This document shows positions 8,099 through 62,936 of a stretch of DNA of 64,000 nucleotides, piece after piece (positions within the stretch are counted from its first letter, which is position 1; each line of letters begins with the position of its first letter). The DNA lies in assembly GCA_026770025.1 (NCBI GenBank), contig JAMXDE010000030.1:468001-532000 (forward strand). Reading direction: 5' to 3'. Below the pieces are notes generated by a model that saw only the letters and a program-made list of their open reading frames with translations, was not told the origin of the DNA and searched no databases. This DNA comes from Craspedostauros australis (taxonomy: Eukaryota; Bacillariophyta; Bacillariophyceae; Mastogloiales; Achnanthaceae). The translations under genes were made by a program, and so were the position numbers.

Positions 8099-8304
8099 AG
8101 GTGGAGTGGTCAAAGTAGTCTTTTCTCAGATGAGCGAAATTCGACTACTTTTTTTGTGGTCGTAAGTGGACTGAGGAGTCCACTTACGGTAACTGGATTG
8201 AGGAGTCCACTTACGAAGCCCAAAAATGCAAGGGGGTCGTAAGTGGACTCACCAGTCCACTTACGAAAACGCCCACACAAAAAATTCCTTACGGATATGA
8301 AGAA
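8099..8304 (-). repeat. Right terminal inverted repeat with palindrome array
   Basis: This is the inverted counterpart of 3578-3783. Palindrome copies lie at about 8161-8188, 8188-8215 and 8238-8266. The outer tip reads AAAAATTCCTTACGGATAT. Confidence 0.8.
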
Positions 8305-18560: not shown

Positions 18561-21500
18561 CATCAGGCTAGAGTCGAGCAGAATGGACGGACGTTGCGGG
18601 GCAGGAGTGACCAAGATGGCATTGCATTTGTTTCAGGTGCATGGAGCGTCTCTCGAGTATGCGTCGTTTTCAATCTTCAAACTTCTGGCGATCTTACCTT
18701 CAAGGTTCCATCGACACTCGCACATGGGCGGACGCCTCAGCAAGGATTCTCTCCGATGAATACAATGGTCACAACTTGCGATGCATTGCATTGCAAGACA
18801 TGTTCTGAGGTGCTATGCTCACCCATATGTGTAGCAATCCTCTGTTCACAATCCCTGGGAACATTGGCAGGTCAGCAGTCAACACTGCGTCATGGATGAG
18901 TTGCCACTGCATGCTCTCCGCAGCGATGTTGGCAAGTTCCGTGATTGGATACTTGCGATCGTGGAAGGCAATGTTGGTTGATAGTCGTTCTGTTTGCTAT
19001 TTCATTTAGTTGAGCACTCCAATCCTCTCAGTGTCTCCTTTCTCTTGCCTGATGCTCTTGGCTCGTCTGTCTGTTTTGTAGATTCAGTCTCCGACTATGA
19101 GTCCGTACGCAAGATGCTCTCTTGCTGCTATTGTATTCTCTCTCTTCTCAATGTTGCATGTTTGTGTCACACGACACTCCATGTTCGATGCATGCTCCGC
19201 ATTCGACACTCTGTTCGTTCACTACTGGCTCCTACTCCATGAGCACTTACCACTTGAACTCCTCTTAGTGTATCCATGATCTCAATGCCCTTCTGTCATC
19301 GAATCTTCACCTTCTGCTTCTGACATGGAGACAGATGTCAACGTGGTGACACGATGACATCCTGTCTACGTCGGTAGGCATCCTTCTGCTCTCCAGATGT
19401 CACGTTCCATCGATGATGCGATGGTCTGTCAGATGATATCGTCATCTGGGGTTTAGTTGAGAAGTACCTCAAGATTCGCTTGGTACCATGCGTCTCCATT
19501 GATGGATGGACGGACGATATTTCCAATTCTCTCAGAAATCGTTGATTGCAAATTTCCTCCAGAAATTCTGCTCATTTTCGTGTGTTCTATTTTCACTGTA
19601 ATTCTGACAAATCACAGCATACTATCGACACGAGTGTAGTTGTACCGTCCAAGTACGTATGAGAGAATAGCGGGTGAACGATGCACATATACACGTACAT
19701 CTCGACATATACTCACATGTACATCTCGACACACAATTCAGGATCACTCTTTATCGTGGGGGCACCCCAACAGGTCATGCACGACGTGTAGCTGTGGCTC
19801 CCTTCGCCTCAAACAGGATACTTGATCCAAACAAGTGTCAAACAACGGTCGTGAAATCACTTTCAGCAACCAATTGGTCCCCACATTTTGTCATCGGTGT
19901 CTGAACAGGTTCATTCACAGAAAATGTTGAGAATTTGAAGGGGTTCCACAGTGTAAATGATGTTCCCCAAGATTGTTTGCGTTCGTGAAGGAGAGTAGTT
20001 TCTCCGAAGAGAGAGGTAGAACCACCGCATCAAGTATCTATCAAGGAACGCACCAAGATTGCGCCACCACAATCACCCATTCATCGACTGGCCCGTGCAC
20101 GGGAGCAAGGAGCGTAGGAGTAGGTCGTAGCTGACACAGACGAATCCAACGAATCCTAACCAATCTCTGAGCCCGCTTCGTCCTTCGTCCTTCCTCCATC
20201 GTCGATTTGTTGAATTTGCACATTGGAACCGCCAACCGCAGCGTCATCGCGGCACATACCCGATCACCTATCACCAACTGGAGCAGCATATAGTATCTCG
20301 TTCGCTTGGAATGGAGTAGAGCATGGGCATTCCTCGGCGATGATCCCCCACCTCCAACTCTGCAAGCTCTGTGGTATGTGATAGTTCGGATGATCACTTG
20401 TGGAGTAGGTAGTACTACATGGCAGATCAGACGACGGGTACGGTAGGAACCAGGGGATTGATCAAATTTTCGCAGGTGGTATCAAATGGCCTGCTATACT
20501 TAACAGTAGTTTGAGCGTTGCACAAGCAGCACATAAGGCCTTTCTATTGTTGGTTCATCCACGATTGAAGCAGCAACAGATACCACAAAGCAAGATCATA
20601 ACGGACGTCCGGTATCCGTCGAGGGATCATTCGTCACAAGAATGCCATTCTCAAGAACTGCACGAGACGAACGGAAGCGGAGCATGGGATCCTCACTCCA
20701 CCCTCCTCCGCTCTCCCACCATGCTCAACATGTTGTCACTCACAAAAGCAGCTGCGATCGGCCGCAACCTGAGGATGTCGCCCAGCGCGTGACCGTTTTG
20801 GTTGTTGAAACAGGTCTCTCTTTGTAGCTCAACATTGACCCAGTAGACCCTGATAATATTGATGTCTTTTGTTTGTGTTGTCTGTACTAATAGTGGTTAT
20901 TGTTGTGGTTGTCAGTGTTGTTGTCAGCTCTGTTGTCTGCTCATTATGAGATCAATTCCATCTCATCTGCTTTCTGGATCTTGATGTGCGATTCATCATC
21001 GCCTTTCACCACGTCTTATCCTGTCATTCTGGCAGTTGCTCAACCAGAATCAACCACTTCATTCTTCAATTTCTACTCAGTTCACCGTGTAGTGGCATGC
21101 CTTCATATTTCTGCACGATTGGATGTCTTGCCTCTTGGTGATCTGCTTGTTTCTCATGCATGGTTGCTCGTTTCTCACACATGGTTGATAGGTCACATAA
21201 CATAGTCATCAGACTCCATCACATGGGCTCTGAATCTCATCATGTGATCTCCGAATCTCATCACATGATCTTGGTCAGTCGTATTTTGGTCCCATATCTC
21301 AATTTTCCATGTTCTTCCGAGTTCTCCATTATTTTCTACTTAGAGTCACGATCAATCACACATTCGCCAATGACGGATCCAAGATTCTCATTTTGGACGA
21401 CCGAACCCGGTCCCACATTTTCCAAAATAATCCGTCTGTCTTGACATTTGGTGAGAACAGAACACAAACGGTGACGTTCGCGAAAGAGTGCTCAGAATTG

Positions 21501-57982: not shown

Positions 57983-58384
57983 GGTGCGAGTGTGTTGAGT
58001 TGTTGAGTTGTTGCGACTGTGCTTCTATAGTCGTAGAATAGTATGATGAGTTTGATGTTGTTGATGTTGTGCATGGAATCGGAGAGTGTTGCGATGCGTC
58101 ATCAATAACGCTCTCTGTTGGTGTTCGGTGTTCCGCTGGTTGCGTCAAAGTCGCCTTGACTCTTCTTGCTGTTCCGCACGTGCCACTATGTACTATTACT
58201 ATGTATTCGTTGTGGACTTCGGTGTCGGCTTCGTTCAGAGGTCTTGTTGCGCGCGAAATGTTCGTGGCCGCAAGTCACCAAGATCGAGACGGAAGTTGTC
58301 TGTCGATCCACCTGTCTCTCTGCATTGCGCTTAAGTGTTTGTCATGTCCAACCGTAACATTGGCGATGTTGGTCATCTCGTTAT
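57983..58384. other. Upstream region of the disordered-protein gene up to the transposon
   Basis: Nothing recognised apart from GTTGTTGA/GTTGAT repeats just upstream of the start. TTAT at 58381-58384 is the target duplication of the neighbouring transposon. Confidence 0.4.
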
Positions 58385-58542
58385 GACCCAGGTGAGCGAG
58401 TGGACCAACCTTTGGTAAAGTAGAGTGGCACTTTTTCTTCAATTTCAACACAACCAAGCATATAAACCAACTCATTATAGTCTCCATAGCACCAAGAAAA
58501 TTACCCAGAGCCTTGAAGTCCGTAGTTTAAGTTTTATGGACC
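58385..58542 (+). repeat. Left TIR of the 4.55-kb transposon
   Basis: 158 bp, inverted relative to 62775-62932, ending inside at TTTAAGTTTTATGGACC. Confidence 0.88.
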
Positions 58543-58797
58543 TGTCAATGTGCACATTTTTGGACTACTCCTAAACTGAGCGATAGACATCCGACAAGTT
58601 CGATCCAAAATAACGTGTTTGTGTTCTTAGTTTTGGCGAATTTGTTCACATTTTGAATTAATTAGTCCTTATTTTGTTCCTCCATTTTCGCCACCAGTCT
58701 CCGTCTCATCTTCGTGCGAATCGCATCCCTCACTTCTTGCGGGACCATCTCTTTGTTCTCCGCGTGCCTCCTGGTGGTGTTGGCCTCACACCACATC

Positions 58798-61700
58798 CTA
58801 TTCTCCCTTTCCTCTTCTTCCATCTCTTCCTCTTCTTGGCTCTTCTGCTTGTCTGATGGTTTCGTACCTGTTGGTTCCATAGCAGTTGCTGTTGCTGTTG
58901 CTGTTGGTGATGGTGGTGATGGTGATGATCCTGATGCCGTTTTTTTTGTTGTTGTTGGTCGTACCTGCTGCCGTGGCTGTTTTCTTCGCGTCTCGTTGTG
59001 AGCTGTAGTACGCCGCGGTCAGGTGCGATTTCACGCGCATTGGACTTCCGTGCAATTGCGTGAACCAATCAGTCTCTGTTCCCTCCAGCTCCATCAATCG
59101 GCGGTGCGCTTCGTGTTCTGTTGGCCGATTTTTCGGGTCCTTTTTGGCGGCCGTGCTCATTTCATCCAATTTCTGCAGTACGTACCGTGGTAACTCCGCG
59201 TTGCTGCGCGTTGTTTTCACTGCCCAGCCCTTCACCGCGAGTCGGGGGATTTCGGCTTCCGCGGTCTGGTCTTTCAATTTTGCGGTGTGGTTGTGTGGTA
59301 GCTCTCCTTGCCCCATCTCCAATGCATCGCGAAACACGAGCGCCTTGCTCTCCACCGCGGTAGCACCCCACTTTCGCGTCTTCTTCTTCTTCTTTGGCGA
59401 TTCGGCGGTGAACGGTTCCTTTCCTGACGTGTGCGTTGCGATCGTGCGGACACCCAGCCGGTTGATTTCCCATCCCTCCCACTCCACACACGGGACAAGT
59501 ACGTCATCTGTGACGCCAGATGCCGCCACCAAATTGGCCTCATCGTCTCCGAACTTGACCTCGTGCGTTTGGCGTACCTTTTGCCCTTTCGCGCAGAAAC
59601 GCTTCTTTGGCATGCCAGGGAAACTCAGGACACGCCACTCGAGGCATTCTGCATCCACCAAAACCGTGGTTGTTCCTGCGATGTTGCCAGCTTCCAATGC
59701 GTTGAAAAGTTGGTGTTCTGTTTTGATGTCATTGTCCTCCAGCACATACGCTCGCAGTACAACAGTGATGTACGCAAAGTGCGTGTCGAGGCGGCCTTTT
59801 CCAGTTTGGGCTTCGGTGTAGATCCAGGCAGAAATCTTCGGGACATTTTGTGTTCCGAGGTTCTTGTTCAGCACTGATGTGATCAGCGGGATGTGCTCGT
59901 GGCTCGCGAAACAAGACGCATTATCGGATTGGATGACAATTTCGGTGACCGATGGAAGAATTTTTCTCACCTGTTGTTGCACAATTTCGAGAAGCCCGCC
60001 AACTTGGAGGGTGTCTTGAGTTGGCCTCCCCTTCACAATGATATTGATGAAGCGATAAGTGAATGTGTCATTGTGACATGTGATCACCATCGCACCCAAC
60101 AGAGACATGCCCTTCTTGCCCCAGTATTCTTGTTGAGCTTCGCCTTGGCCAGTCGGAAGAATTTTCTGTTTGTGGTCCAGCACCACATGTGCACGATCCT
60201 CTCGGTTGTTGATACTTTGGAGGTACTGCTCAATTTGTCCGAATTGAACCTTGCTGCACACTTTGTGTGCCATGTACCACAGTATTTCGTTGTTGAACCC
60301 CAGTGCAGCATTGAGCATCGACTCCAATTCTGTCGCGTGTTCCGCAAGGTGATCTTCCATAAGCAATGTCACGAAAGGGACATATCGGTCGTCCACAAAA
60401 CGCATCACCCCTGCACAACGGTTACATACTCCAGTGTGTTGTTTGTCTGTGGTGGCGCAAGGCTGTTCATTATTGTCAGTGGTGGTGTCATTGGCAGCAG
60501 CATGTGTCACACGAGTGATGTCAGGAATATCAATTGTGATGGTTGGAGTGTCGTTGGTGGCAGAAGCGATGTCATTTGTTTGAGTGATCTTCTTCCTGAG
60601 CTTGTGCTTGTTGGTACGCGTTCTGGTTGATTGGGATTGTTTCGTCATTGTCTTCTTCTTCTGGTTGGGCATGAGCGCAAATTGAGCTGAGTGCATTGGG
60701 TCATCACACTCCATCTGCATGTGAGAGGCAGTGAATTCCCATTTGACGAAGACAACAAGAAGCTCCAATGAGTACAACAGAGACTTGGCTGTGCGCAGAT
60801 GCCGGGAAATCACGTCATTCTCGTCCTCAGCGCCGTTTGTTGTGGGATACTTAGCCTTCAAAAGTGTGACGAGGCGCGAGATCGTGCGTTTGAGAGTTAG
60901 CATTGCCAACAAAAAGTGGCTTTCGAAGGAAGACAGCCCTGTGTTCACTTTGCCACGTCGTGTTAGTAGCTTTGTCATCTCTTTGAATGCTGGTTCGCCC
61001 ACTGGGTTGGTGGTGGTAGTCTTGTACATGTCGAATAGCGCCTTGATGCTTTTGCCTCCACGATCAAAGACCGGAACTTTCTCGAATACGACTCCTTCCC
61101 ACTCCACTGCATGACACAAGCCAGCCTTGTACGTGGTCGTAGTGCAGAGAAACGACACCACACCAGACAAAGCACACGCAGTCACACGGTATTGGAGAAT
61201 TTTGGGCGGAATGGTCTCCCCATCACTCAACATGTCGTAGTAGTGCTGCAATGTCTTCTGTTGGCTTTTAGTGATGGTTTGTCGATTGCTATGTACATGC
61301 ACGCGTTCTTCCTCCGGCAATCCATTGGCGTATCCAGTGAGAATATCTGTGCATGCTTTTGGAGATGCAGACTCTGCGAGAACGGCTCTCGCGCAGAGGT
61401 GCATCAGTTTGCTCCCTCCAACACATATGCGGTACAAATTTGGTGCAAGCGTCAGTGGTGGCAGTGCTTGCCCTGCCCGGACAAAATGCACCACCTCATG
61501 CATCTGGCCAGTTGGTGTCGCTTCTTTTGGGAGCAACACATCCCAGAGCGCAGAAGCAATTGGCACCCACAGCCGTTTGATGTTGCACCAGACTTGCTTG
61601 TTGTGTTTTCCACCAAGTGTGAATCCCGTCTTTGGCATGGAGTCGAACACTTTTGCAGGTAGCCCCGACTTAACCAACCCTGCAACGCGGACCAACGCAT

Positions 61701-62280
61701 CGCGACGCCATCCTCTCACTGTTTTCTGGATGAGTCTGTTGCGGCCGGTTCGCTTCTTCCTGCGATCACAGCCGTCCATGTAGTCGTCGTCGCTGTCAAC
61801 ATCAACTTGCTCGGAAGCACCTCCAGCGACAGCGTTTGCGTGTCGCGCAGTGCTTGCGCGGGTAGTTGGTTTGGCAGGAGACTCAATGGGAGGTGGCACG
61901 TTCACACTGATGTCTACCACTGTGATAGCACCGACACCTTGTCCAACCGTACGCAGTGTGACCGTTGGTGCATCAAAGATGACACCAGCCGCACTGGACA
62001 GGCGCACGTCAACGCGCAGGTTAGCGGCATCGACATGCGCCAAAGTTGGAACAAGGTTGCTGTCCACCGGAAGCATCGGCTTCACCTCGATCGCGTGAGT
62101 GATGTCGGTGGGCTTCCGCAATCCAGTAGACAGCTTGTCAGGCAACAGCTGCTCACGAGTAGGTGCCAAGTTGCCATCCGAATCAAAAGGAGAATCGAGA
62201 GGGGCAGCACAGGAACGAGGCTTCTTACGAGGAGATGGGTTTTCGCCCTTGATTGTTGCTTTGGCGGGGATGGAGGACAT
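58798..62280 (-). CDS. Putative DDE-type transposase, family unassigned (1161 aa)
   Basis: An uninterrupted frame fills the element. The open frame reaches 62595, but ATG 62280 gives a sensible N terminus with a nuclear-localisation-like SPRKKPR, so it is preferred. Residues 150-620 are mixed charged/helical with a probable DNA-binding role. A Lys/Thr-rich linker with Asn/Asp-Thr repeats follows. The C-terminal half carries a series like an RNase H-fold transposase: VVLDHKQKILPTGQ (Asp702) with WGKKGMSLLGAMVI, IVIQSDNASCF (Asp786), and IYTEAQTGKGRLDTHF (Glu823, with Asp832 as alternative). The 83- and 36-residue spacings suit a DDE triad. A pair CNRC lies upstream of the first Asp. The end is basic (KKKKKTRKW, later RRGRDGRRGKG). 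Function as transposase is inferred from the motifs plus the surrounding TIRs. Confidence 0.75.
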   Translation of the reverse strand: MSSIPAKATIKGENPSPRKKPRSCAAPLDSPFDSDGNLAPTREQLLPDKLSTGLRKPTDITHAIEVKPMLPVDSNLVPTLAHVDAANLRVDVRLSSAAGVIFDAPTVTLRTVGQGVGAITVVDISVNVPPPIESPAKPTTRASTARHANAVAGGASEQVDVDSDDDYMDGCDRRKKRTGRNRLIQKTVRGWRRDALVRVAGLVKSGLPAKVFDSMPKTGFTLGGKHNKQVWCNIKRLWVPIASALWDVLLPKEATPTGQMHEVVHFVRAGQALPPLTLAPNLYRICVGGSKLMHLCARAVLAESASPKACTDILTGYANGLPEEERVHVHSNRQTITKSQQKTLQHYYDMLSDGETIPPKILQYRVTACALSGVVSFLCTTTTYKAGLCHAVEWEGVVFEKVPVFDRGGKSIKALFDMYKTTTTNPVGEPAFKEMTKLLTRRGKVNTGLSSFESHFLLAMLTLKRTISRLVTLLKAKYPTTNGAEDENDVISRHLRTAKSLLYSLELLVVFVKWEFTASHMQMECDDPMHSAQFALMPNQKKKTMTKQSQSTRTRTNKHKLRKKITQTNDIASATNDTPTITIDIPDITRVTHAAANDTTTDNNEQPCATTDKQHTGVCNRCAGVMRFVDDRYVPFVTLLMEDHLAEHATELESMLNAALGFNNEILWYMAHKVCSKVQFGQIEQYLQSINNREDRAHVVLDHKQKILPTGQGEAQQEYWGKKGMSLLGAMVITCHNDTFTYRFINIIVKGRPTQDTLQVGGLLEIVQQQVRKILPSVTEIVIQSDNASCFASHEHIPLITSVLNKNLGTQNVPKISAWIYTEAQTGKGRLDTHFAYITVVLRAYVLEDNDIKTEHQLFNALEAGNIAGTTTVLVDAECLEWRVLSFPGMPKKRFCAKGQKVRQTHEVKFGDDEANLVAASGVTDDVLVPCVEWEGWEINRLGVRTIATHTSGKEPFTAESPKKKKKTRKWGATAVESKALVFRDALEMGQGELPHNHTAKLKDQTAEAEIPRLAVKGWAVKTTRSNAELPRYVLQKLDEMSTAAKKDPKNRPTEHEAHRRLMELEGTETDWFTQLHGSPMRVKSHLTAAYYSSQRDAKKTATAAGTTNNNKKNGIRIITITTITNSNSNSNCYGTNRYETIRQAEEPRRGRDGRRGKGE

Positions 62281-62774
62281 GGTGTTGATGGTAGCAAAGG
62301 AGGTTGATTGATTGATTGATTGATGAATCGCACCGTAGAACGCTGAATGAAAGCGGGTGGAGGAGGTGATGCCGATGGAGGTGTTGGATGCAGCAGCGAG
62401 AACAACAACCGCCAATGTCACTAGTGCTCTCACTACTCGTACTACAACCGCAGCACAACAGATACAACGAGCATCGCATCGGCGGAGGCACCTTTGGAAT
62501 GAAGCAAAAATGTGACGGTTTTTGTGTCGGCGTGGCGACGATGTGTGCGTGCGCATGTGATGATGTGTGTGATGTCCACAAGTGGAAAATGTCAATCGAT
62601 TCCGGAGCAGCTAACGGTGTGTAACGTGTTCCAAACGAACGAGGAGGAAGGAAAAAGCTGGAGACACCAACGTGAATGGACACCAATCGTTATTAACTCG
62701 GAATAGCAAAGAACTTTCGGCAAAATTACATTGTGGAACACTACGTTTGACCCAAACGATTCCAAATATTTGAT

Positions 62775-62932
62775 GGTCCATAAAACTTAAATTATAAACT
62801 TTAAGATTCTGGGTAATTTTCCTGTTGCTATGGAGACTATAATGAGTTGGTTTATATGCTTGGTTGTGTTGAAATCCAAGAAAAATTGCCACTCTACTTT
62901 ACCAAAGGTTGGTCGACTCACTCACCCGGGTC
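62775..62932 (-). repeat. Right TIR of the 4.55-kb transposon
   Basis: 158 bp, inverted counterpart of 58385-58542. The target duplication TTAT follows. Confidence 0.88.
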
Positions 62933-62936
62933 TTAT

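Follow-up and report, generated by a model that had tools for sequence, protein, structure and literature searches.

What kind of mobile element occupies positions 58385 to 62932 of the window, the whole 64,000-nucleotide stretch of Craspedostauros australis DNA analysed here (contig JAMXDE010000030.1, positions 468,001 to 532,000), and does its one long gene encode the enzyme that moves it? A sequence-only reading of the locus had described an apparently intact DNA transposon with a DDE-like protein that matched no recognised superfamily. The ends, the dispersed copies and the selection acting on the gene make it very probable that the element is a member of a recently active, autonomous-type family of DNA transposons encoding its own putative DDE/D transposase.

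The element and its gene

The window copy is delimited by the following features.

58385..62932, minus strand (gene strand): transposon, subfamily A copy, 4548 bp, whose two tips and target duplication were identified
62775..62932, minus strand: terminal inverted repeat (TIR) upstream of the gene, with the tip 5'-GACCCGGGTGAGTGAGTCGACC; its 158 nt match the opposite arm at 90.5% identity
58385..58542, plus strand: TIR downstream of the gene, with the tip 5'-GACCCAGGTGAGCGAGTGGACC, from the inverted-repeat comparison and tip location
58381..58384, no strand: left target duplication TTAT (ATAA in gene orientation), of the NTAN class
62933..62936, no strand: right target duplication TTAT, from the flank comparison
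58798..62280, minus strand: putative transposase, 1160 residues, single exon, from the open reading frame (ORF) translation and a ratio of nonsynonymous to synonymous substitution rates (dN/dS) of 0.15 to 0.36
58798..58941, minus strand: C-terminal tail of the protein, shifted out of the frame that most other copies use, from the protein list, the alignment and the comparison with copy L005

The boundaries at 58385 and 62932 are exact and coincide with those given by the sequence-only reading, whose 158-bp TIRs and TTAT duplication are also confirmed, with a second alignment of the arms extending over 161 nt at 90% identity. Its identification as a DNA transposon is supported by the TIRs, the duplications and the dispersed copies described below. 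The minus-strand ORF from 62280 to 58798 comprises 1160 residues plus the stop, making 1161 codons, and this gene is by far the longest ORF of subfamily A, the others listed reaching 343 residues at most and either running on the opposite strand or being pieces of this gene.

The frame of the window copy is open, as had been claimed, but its last approximately 47 residues (about 1114 to 1160) are frameshifted relative to copy L005 by indels starting at an A run near 58940. The acidic tail with the motif WC[DE]A, found in 25 of the 29 listed proteins, is absent from the window copy and from L002, L007 and L015. The description "apparently intact" was therefore too strong for this copy, which the C-terminal frameshift may have impaired, though elsewhere in the family the frame stays open throughout.

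A large family with two subfamilies

Further copies were sought in the genome from which the window comes (74.8 Mb in 90 contigs). The search with the whole protein gave at least 43 matches at 40 places, 17 of them at 89 to 100% identity and 23 at 52 to 64%, with 40 of 518 candidates scored. With the catalytic core (residues 688 to 905) as the query, at least 150 matches were found (150 of 368 candidates scored), so that the further copies for which the sequence-only reading had proposed to look are present. Those scored fall into subfamily A, with 24 matches at 90 to 100% identity, and subfamily B, with 126 at 73 to 76%. Of the 150 scored core matches, 5 contain a stop within the core. Stop-to-stop frames that reach at least 1150 codons enclose 105 of the 150 (subfamily A, 11 of 24; subfamily B, 94 of 126). 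A search with the TIR only yielded at least 40 matches, 40 of 69 candidates having been scored.

Among 40 fetched copies, both ends could be located in 29, which span 4548 to 6092 bp. The ends were identified by the tip G[AG][CGT]CC on both sides, and preference was given to matching 4-mers up to 25 bp from the TIR ends, a procedure that is biased towards duplications, yet the tip is identical in the listed copies. Subfamily A elements are mostly 4.55 to 4.69 kb long, with two at 5.1 and 5.7 kb, and subfamily B elements measure 5.98 to 6.09 kb, carrying an extra stretch of about 1.5 kb downstream of the gene, approximately 4.2 to 6.0 kb from the tip, that is missing in subfamily A. This stretch has ORFs on both strands in L018, L021, L024, L027, L037 and L038, none of which could be supported as a second gene. 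A frame of at least 1150 residues is found in 23 of the 29 two-ended elements (8 of 12 in subfamily A, 15 of 17 in subfamily B), a count that includes the frameshifted window copy and also L037, with an unchecked start codon.

Separate insertions and purifying selection

Identical 4-bp flanks were found in 28 of the 29 two-ended copies, and all 28 duplications read NTAN: ATAA, ATAT and ATAG five times each, ATAC three times, TTAC, TTAA, GTAT and CTAT twice each, and CTAA and TTAT once each. In a profile of 27 sites the middle T and A are invariant (27/27) and every other position is variable. The 700-bp flanks of the 29 elements have nothing in common between copies except local repeats of at most 287 bp, and the copies therefore represent separate insertions. 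The window itself carries, at 8152-8301 and 19444-19730, repeats common to the flanks of copies L026 and L017, which are other dispersed repeats.

Over residues 1 to 1100, dN/dS ranges from 0.15 to 0.36 in 17 hand-chosen pairs of copies; in the core, the same number of pairs gives 0.07 to 0.51. Three pairs that span the two subfamilies have a core dN/dS of 0.09 to 0.11, at a synonymous divergence (dS) of 1.9 to 2.3, which is saturating. The gene is under purifying selection. Copies L027 and L032 occupy separate sites, each flanked by a different duplication, and share 99.2% identity over residues 1 to 1100. Together with the low dN/dS, this near-identity indicates that the family was long kept functional and has moved recently, which bears out the earlier suggestion that it could still be active to the extent of a recently active family.

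In the mechanism that we propose, the single long gene would encode a DDE/D-type transposase that would bind the TIRs of about 158 bp and cut the element out, and insertion at a cut staggered by 4 bp around a central TA (NTAN) would then generate the 4-bp duplications. We infer that catalysis is performed by the 1160-residue protein and that the route is cut-and-paste as against another DNA route.

Conserved residues and a proposed catalytic triad

The alignment comprises 22 of the 29 listed proteins; the window copy replaces L001, and L007, L015, L019, L032, L036, L039 and L040 were excluded. A conservation line drawn for the listed proteins left out L007 and L015. The residues of interest, numbered on the window protein, are as follows.

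60415..60426, minus strand: CxxC (C619, C622), invariant in 22/22 aligned copies
60175..60177, minus strand: D702, proposed first catalytic acid, in VVLDHKQKI, 22/22
59923..59925, minus strand: D786, proposed second catalytic acid, in IVIQSDNAS, 20/22, replaced by N in L002 and L005
59785..59787, minus strand: D832, favoured third catalytic acid, in EAQTGKGRLD, 22/22, a choice over E823 that we infer
59812..59814, minus strand: E823, alternative third catalytic acid, 22/22

The CxxC cysteines are possible zinc ligands, and C525 and H530 are likewise invariant across the 22 aligned copies. Between the proposed acids lie 83 residues (D702 to D786) and then either 36 (D786 to E823) or 45 (D786 to D832). 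From the alignment we favour the triad D702-D786-D832. D832 is preferred over E823 because the stretch EAQTGK..LD appears to resemble the PQ-x-x-G-K-x-E stretch that precedes the third acid of retroviral-type integrases and Ginger elements. In the integrase stretch, the last acid begins a helix. The integrases and Ginger differ from the window family in their Pfam model, rve, which is absent among the matches of the 22 members at E ≤ 10. A motif of the IVIQSDNAS type was located in 36 of the 40 copies, with D in 34 and N in L002 and L005; it was not located in L003, L004, L007 and L016.

Relatives and superfamily placement

The sequence-only reading had recognised no superfamily signature, and no credible match was found in Pfam, NCBIfam, PHROGs or PDB. 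At E ≤ 10 the window protein matches no Pfam family, and the 22 members match 13, none of them a transposase, with a best E of 0.019; PHROGs and NCBIfam gave no family each, and PDB gave weak matches only (E ≥ 0.63). Superfamilies with a Pfam transposase or integrase model, such as hAT, MULE and Ginger, were set aside, as none of these models is matched by the 22 members at this threshold.

Outside this genome, the collections searched were those of viruses, phages and prokaryotes. No relative was found in viral contigs, with protein and alignment queries, or in prokaryote genomes, nor in phage records with the core residues only as the query. A degenerate motif pattern occurs at 11 places in the viral contigs, where the best tblastn match (L042, E 0.006) covers 57 residues at the motif by which the pattern had selected it, has stops upstream and was judged to be due to chance. 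The same pattern occurs at no fewer than 118 places in the prokaryote genomes, and none of the 80 of 118 that were compared with four family members matched at E ≤ 0.5. A second motif was found at two places in the diatom's own genome, both in stop-filled frames. Some uncharacterised proteins of animals and oomycetes, which carry the motifs SDNA, TETQDGK..DAHFA and GKRGM, are presumably very similar in motif order and serve as a lead only; no such relative was found in the virus, phage and prokaryote collections.

Membership of a named superfamily, most likely Sola (Sola1, Sola2 or Sola3), is the leading candidate for the placement of the family, at a probability that we put slightly below even; the element would then be ordinary apart from being undocumented in its host. 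This reading keeps the mechanism proposed above and competes only with that of a new superfamily. In the summary given by PMC10741241, Sola elements make 4-bp duplications, encode a DDD transposase, have TIRs of 11 to 1124 bp and are mostly 2 to 9 kb long, and the window family resembles them in its 4-bp duplication (28/29), its long TIRs (158 bp in the window copy) and its size of 4.5 to 6.1 kb, all within these ranges. Sola-1 and Sola-2 are moreover listed for the brown alga Ectocarpus in the survey of PMC12477816. Sola is described with a DDD triad (PMC10741241); of the candidate acids here, D702 and D832 are invariant (22/22) and D786 is kept in 20/22, but E823, which would make a DDE triad, is invariant too (22/22). 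The target sites agree in part: dictyostelid Sola2 elements, as outlined in PMC3627910, have AT-rich 4-bp duplications of the form AWWT, among them ATAT, which is also found here, and AAAT and ATTT, which are not centred on TA, whereas 28 of 28 duplications of the window family read NTAN. A placement in or near Sola is tentative, falling a little short of an even chance.

It is less likely, though a possibility to be taken seriously, that the family represents an undescribed eukaryotic DDE/D superfamily, which would be characterised by a transposase of about 1200 residues, the spacing D-(83)-D-(45)-D, the motif EAQTGK..LDTHFA and TA-centred 4-bp duplications. It would have multiplied in one diatom to at least 150 copies, mostly with long open frames, and other eukaryotes may have unannotated members of it. 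No description of the family appears in the portion of the literature that was searched, which includes parts of PMC10294476, PMC8147415 and PMC8613185; the main Sola and transposase-superfamily papers lie outside it, and its silence is therefore weak evidence of novelty. Of the earlier suggestion of a new or poorly described family, what stands is that the profile libraries used do not recognise it; its novelty is unproven, as the measured features fit Sola.

Points against the proposed mechanism and less probable alternatives

Several observations weigh against a family moved by its own DDE/D transposase. The protein has no homology to any characterised transposase in the four libraries named above. 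No usable fold was obtained for the RNase H core and the clustering of the acids that the sequence-only reading had raised: two single-sequence AlphaFold models, with the window sequence alone as input, reached a mean pLDDT of 33.7 and 35.2, and their order of strands and helices, which would suit an RNase H core, is given no weight at a pLDDT below 36, while Foldseek searches with both low-pLDDT models returned nothing at E ≤ 0.001. Excision was not seen; when the joined flanks of L026 and L020 were compared with repeats of the window and of L008, neither comparison revealed a clean empty site. A pair of ends was not located in 11 of the 40 fetched copies, for some of them owing to a short stretch or an altered TIR, and the flanks of L033 differ from each other. 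The core dN/dS of L001 and L005 is 0.51, the highest of the pairs. Copies L002 and L005 carry D786N and yet have perfect duplications, so that D786 is not required unless these copies were mobilised in trans; that they are two separate insertions sharing D786N suggests movement in trans.

The last of these points also favours the explanation that the 1160-residue protein is a passenger and that another transposase mobilises the element in trans, as copies with stops or with D786N keep their duplications and the catalytic role of the protein is itself putative. The length of the gene, which exceeds that of every other listed ORF of subfamily A by a wide margin, its presence in both subfamilies and the purifying selection on it argue against a passenger, which we regard as improbable. 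An element that encodes its own putative transposase remains our preferred explanation.

Still less probable is a Kolobok element, to which we assign very little weight. The 4-bp duplication with its central TA would suit it, as would the termini 5'-GA and TC-3', which obey the 5'-RR/YY-3' rule stated in PMC9587614, and Kolobok is reported there from the diatom Fragilariopsis cylindrus. However, the duplications of Kolobok are given as TTAA in the same account (PMC9587614), a sequence found in 2 of 28 cases here, and the C/DxxH motif between the second D and the last acid was not seen, the alignment showing only C790-x3-H794. Three further superfamilies were rejected on the target-site rules as summarised in the sources: piggyBac, which uses TTAA (2/28 here; PMC9587614), Tc1/mariner, with 2-bp TA duplications (PMC10741241), as the duplications here are 4 bp long and their outer bases match too, and PIF/Harbinger, with 3-bp duplications (PMC12477816) as against 4 bp.

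Other features of the genome

Matches to the integrase model (rve) number 89 in the genome, 4 of them over the family cut-off, many having tied scores and lying within open frames that run to about 2450 or 2080 codons, and MULE has 9 matches, all over the cut-off; both are apparently other young mobile elements.

The silicon transporter family has 88 matches in the genome, which supports a diatom or other silicifier as the host, and a control search of 14 genomes gave one weak match below the cut-off; an 18S pattern had no match. Thirty-two of the 88 are nearly full length or above 760 bits (their scores are 761 to 831 bits, and most are close to full length), a number that exceeds that known from other diatoms. 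Clusters occur among them, stops interrupt 4 of the 32, and examples lie at C2:977655-1028778, C11:710408 and C61:24421-130392. One match, C2:2623888-2625273, comes to within about 320 bp of a transposon-family TIR at C2:2625592, and another, C2:1027174, lies about 3.2 kb from a transposase core; both proximities may be due to chance.

Significance for diatom transposons

With at least about 100 copies in long open frames, near-identical insertions at different sites and clear duplications, the family is a good candidate for a natively active diatom element. A model built from its transposase could classify repeats that are now listed as unknown.

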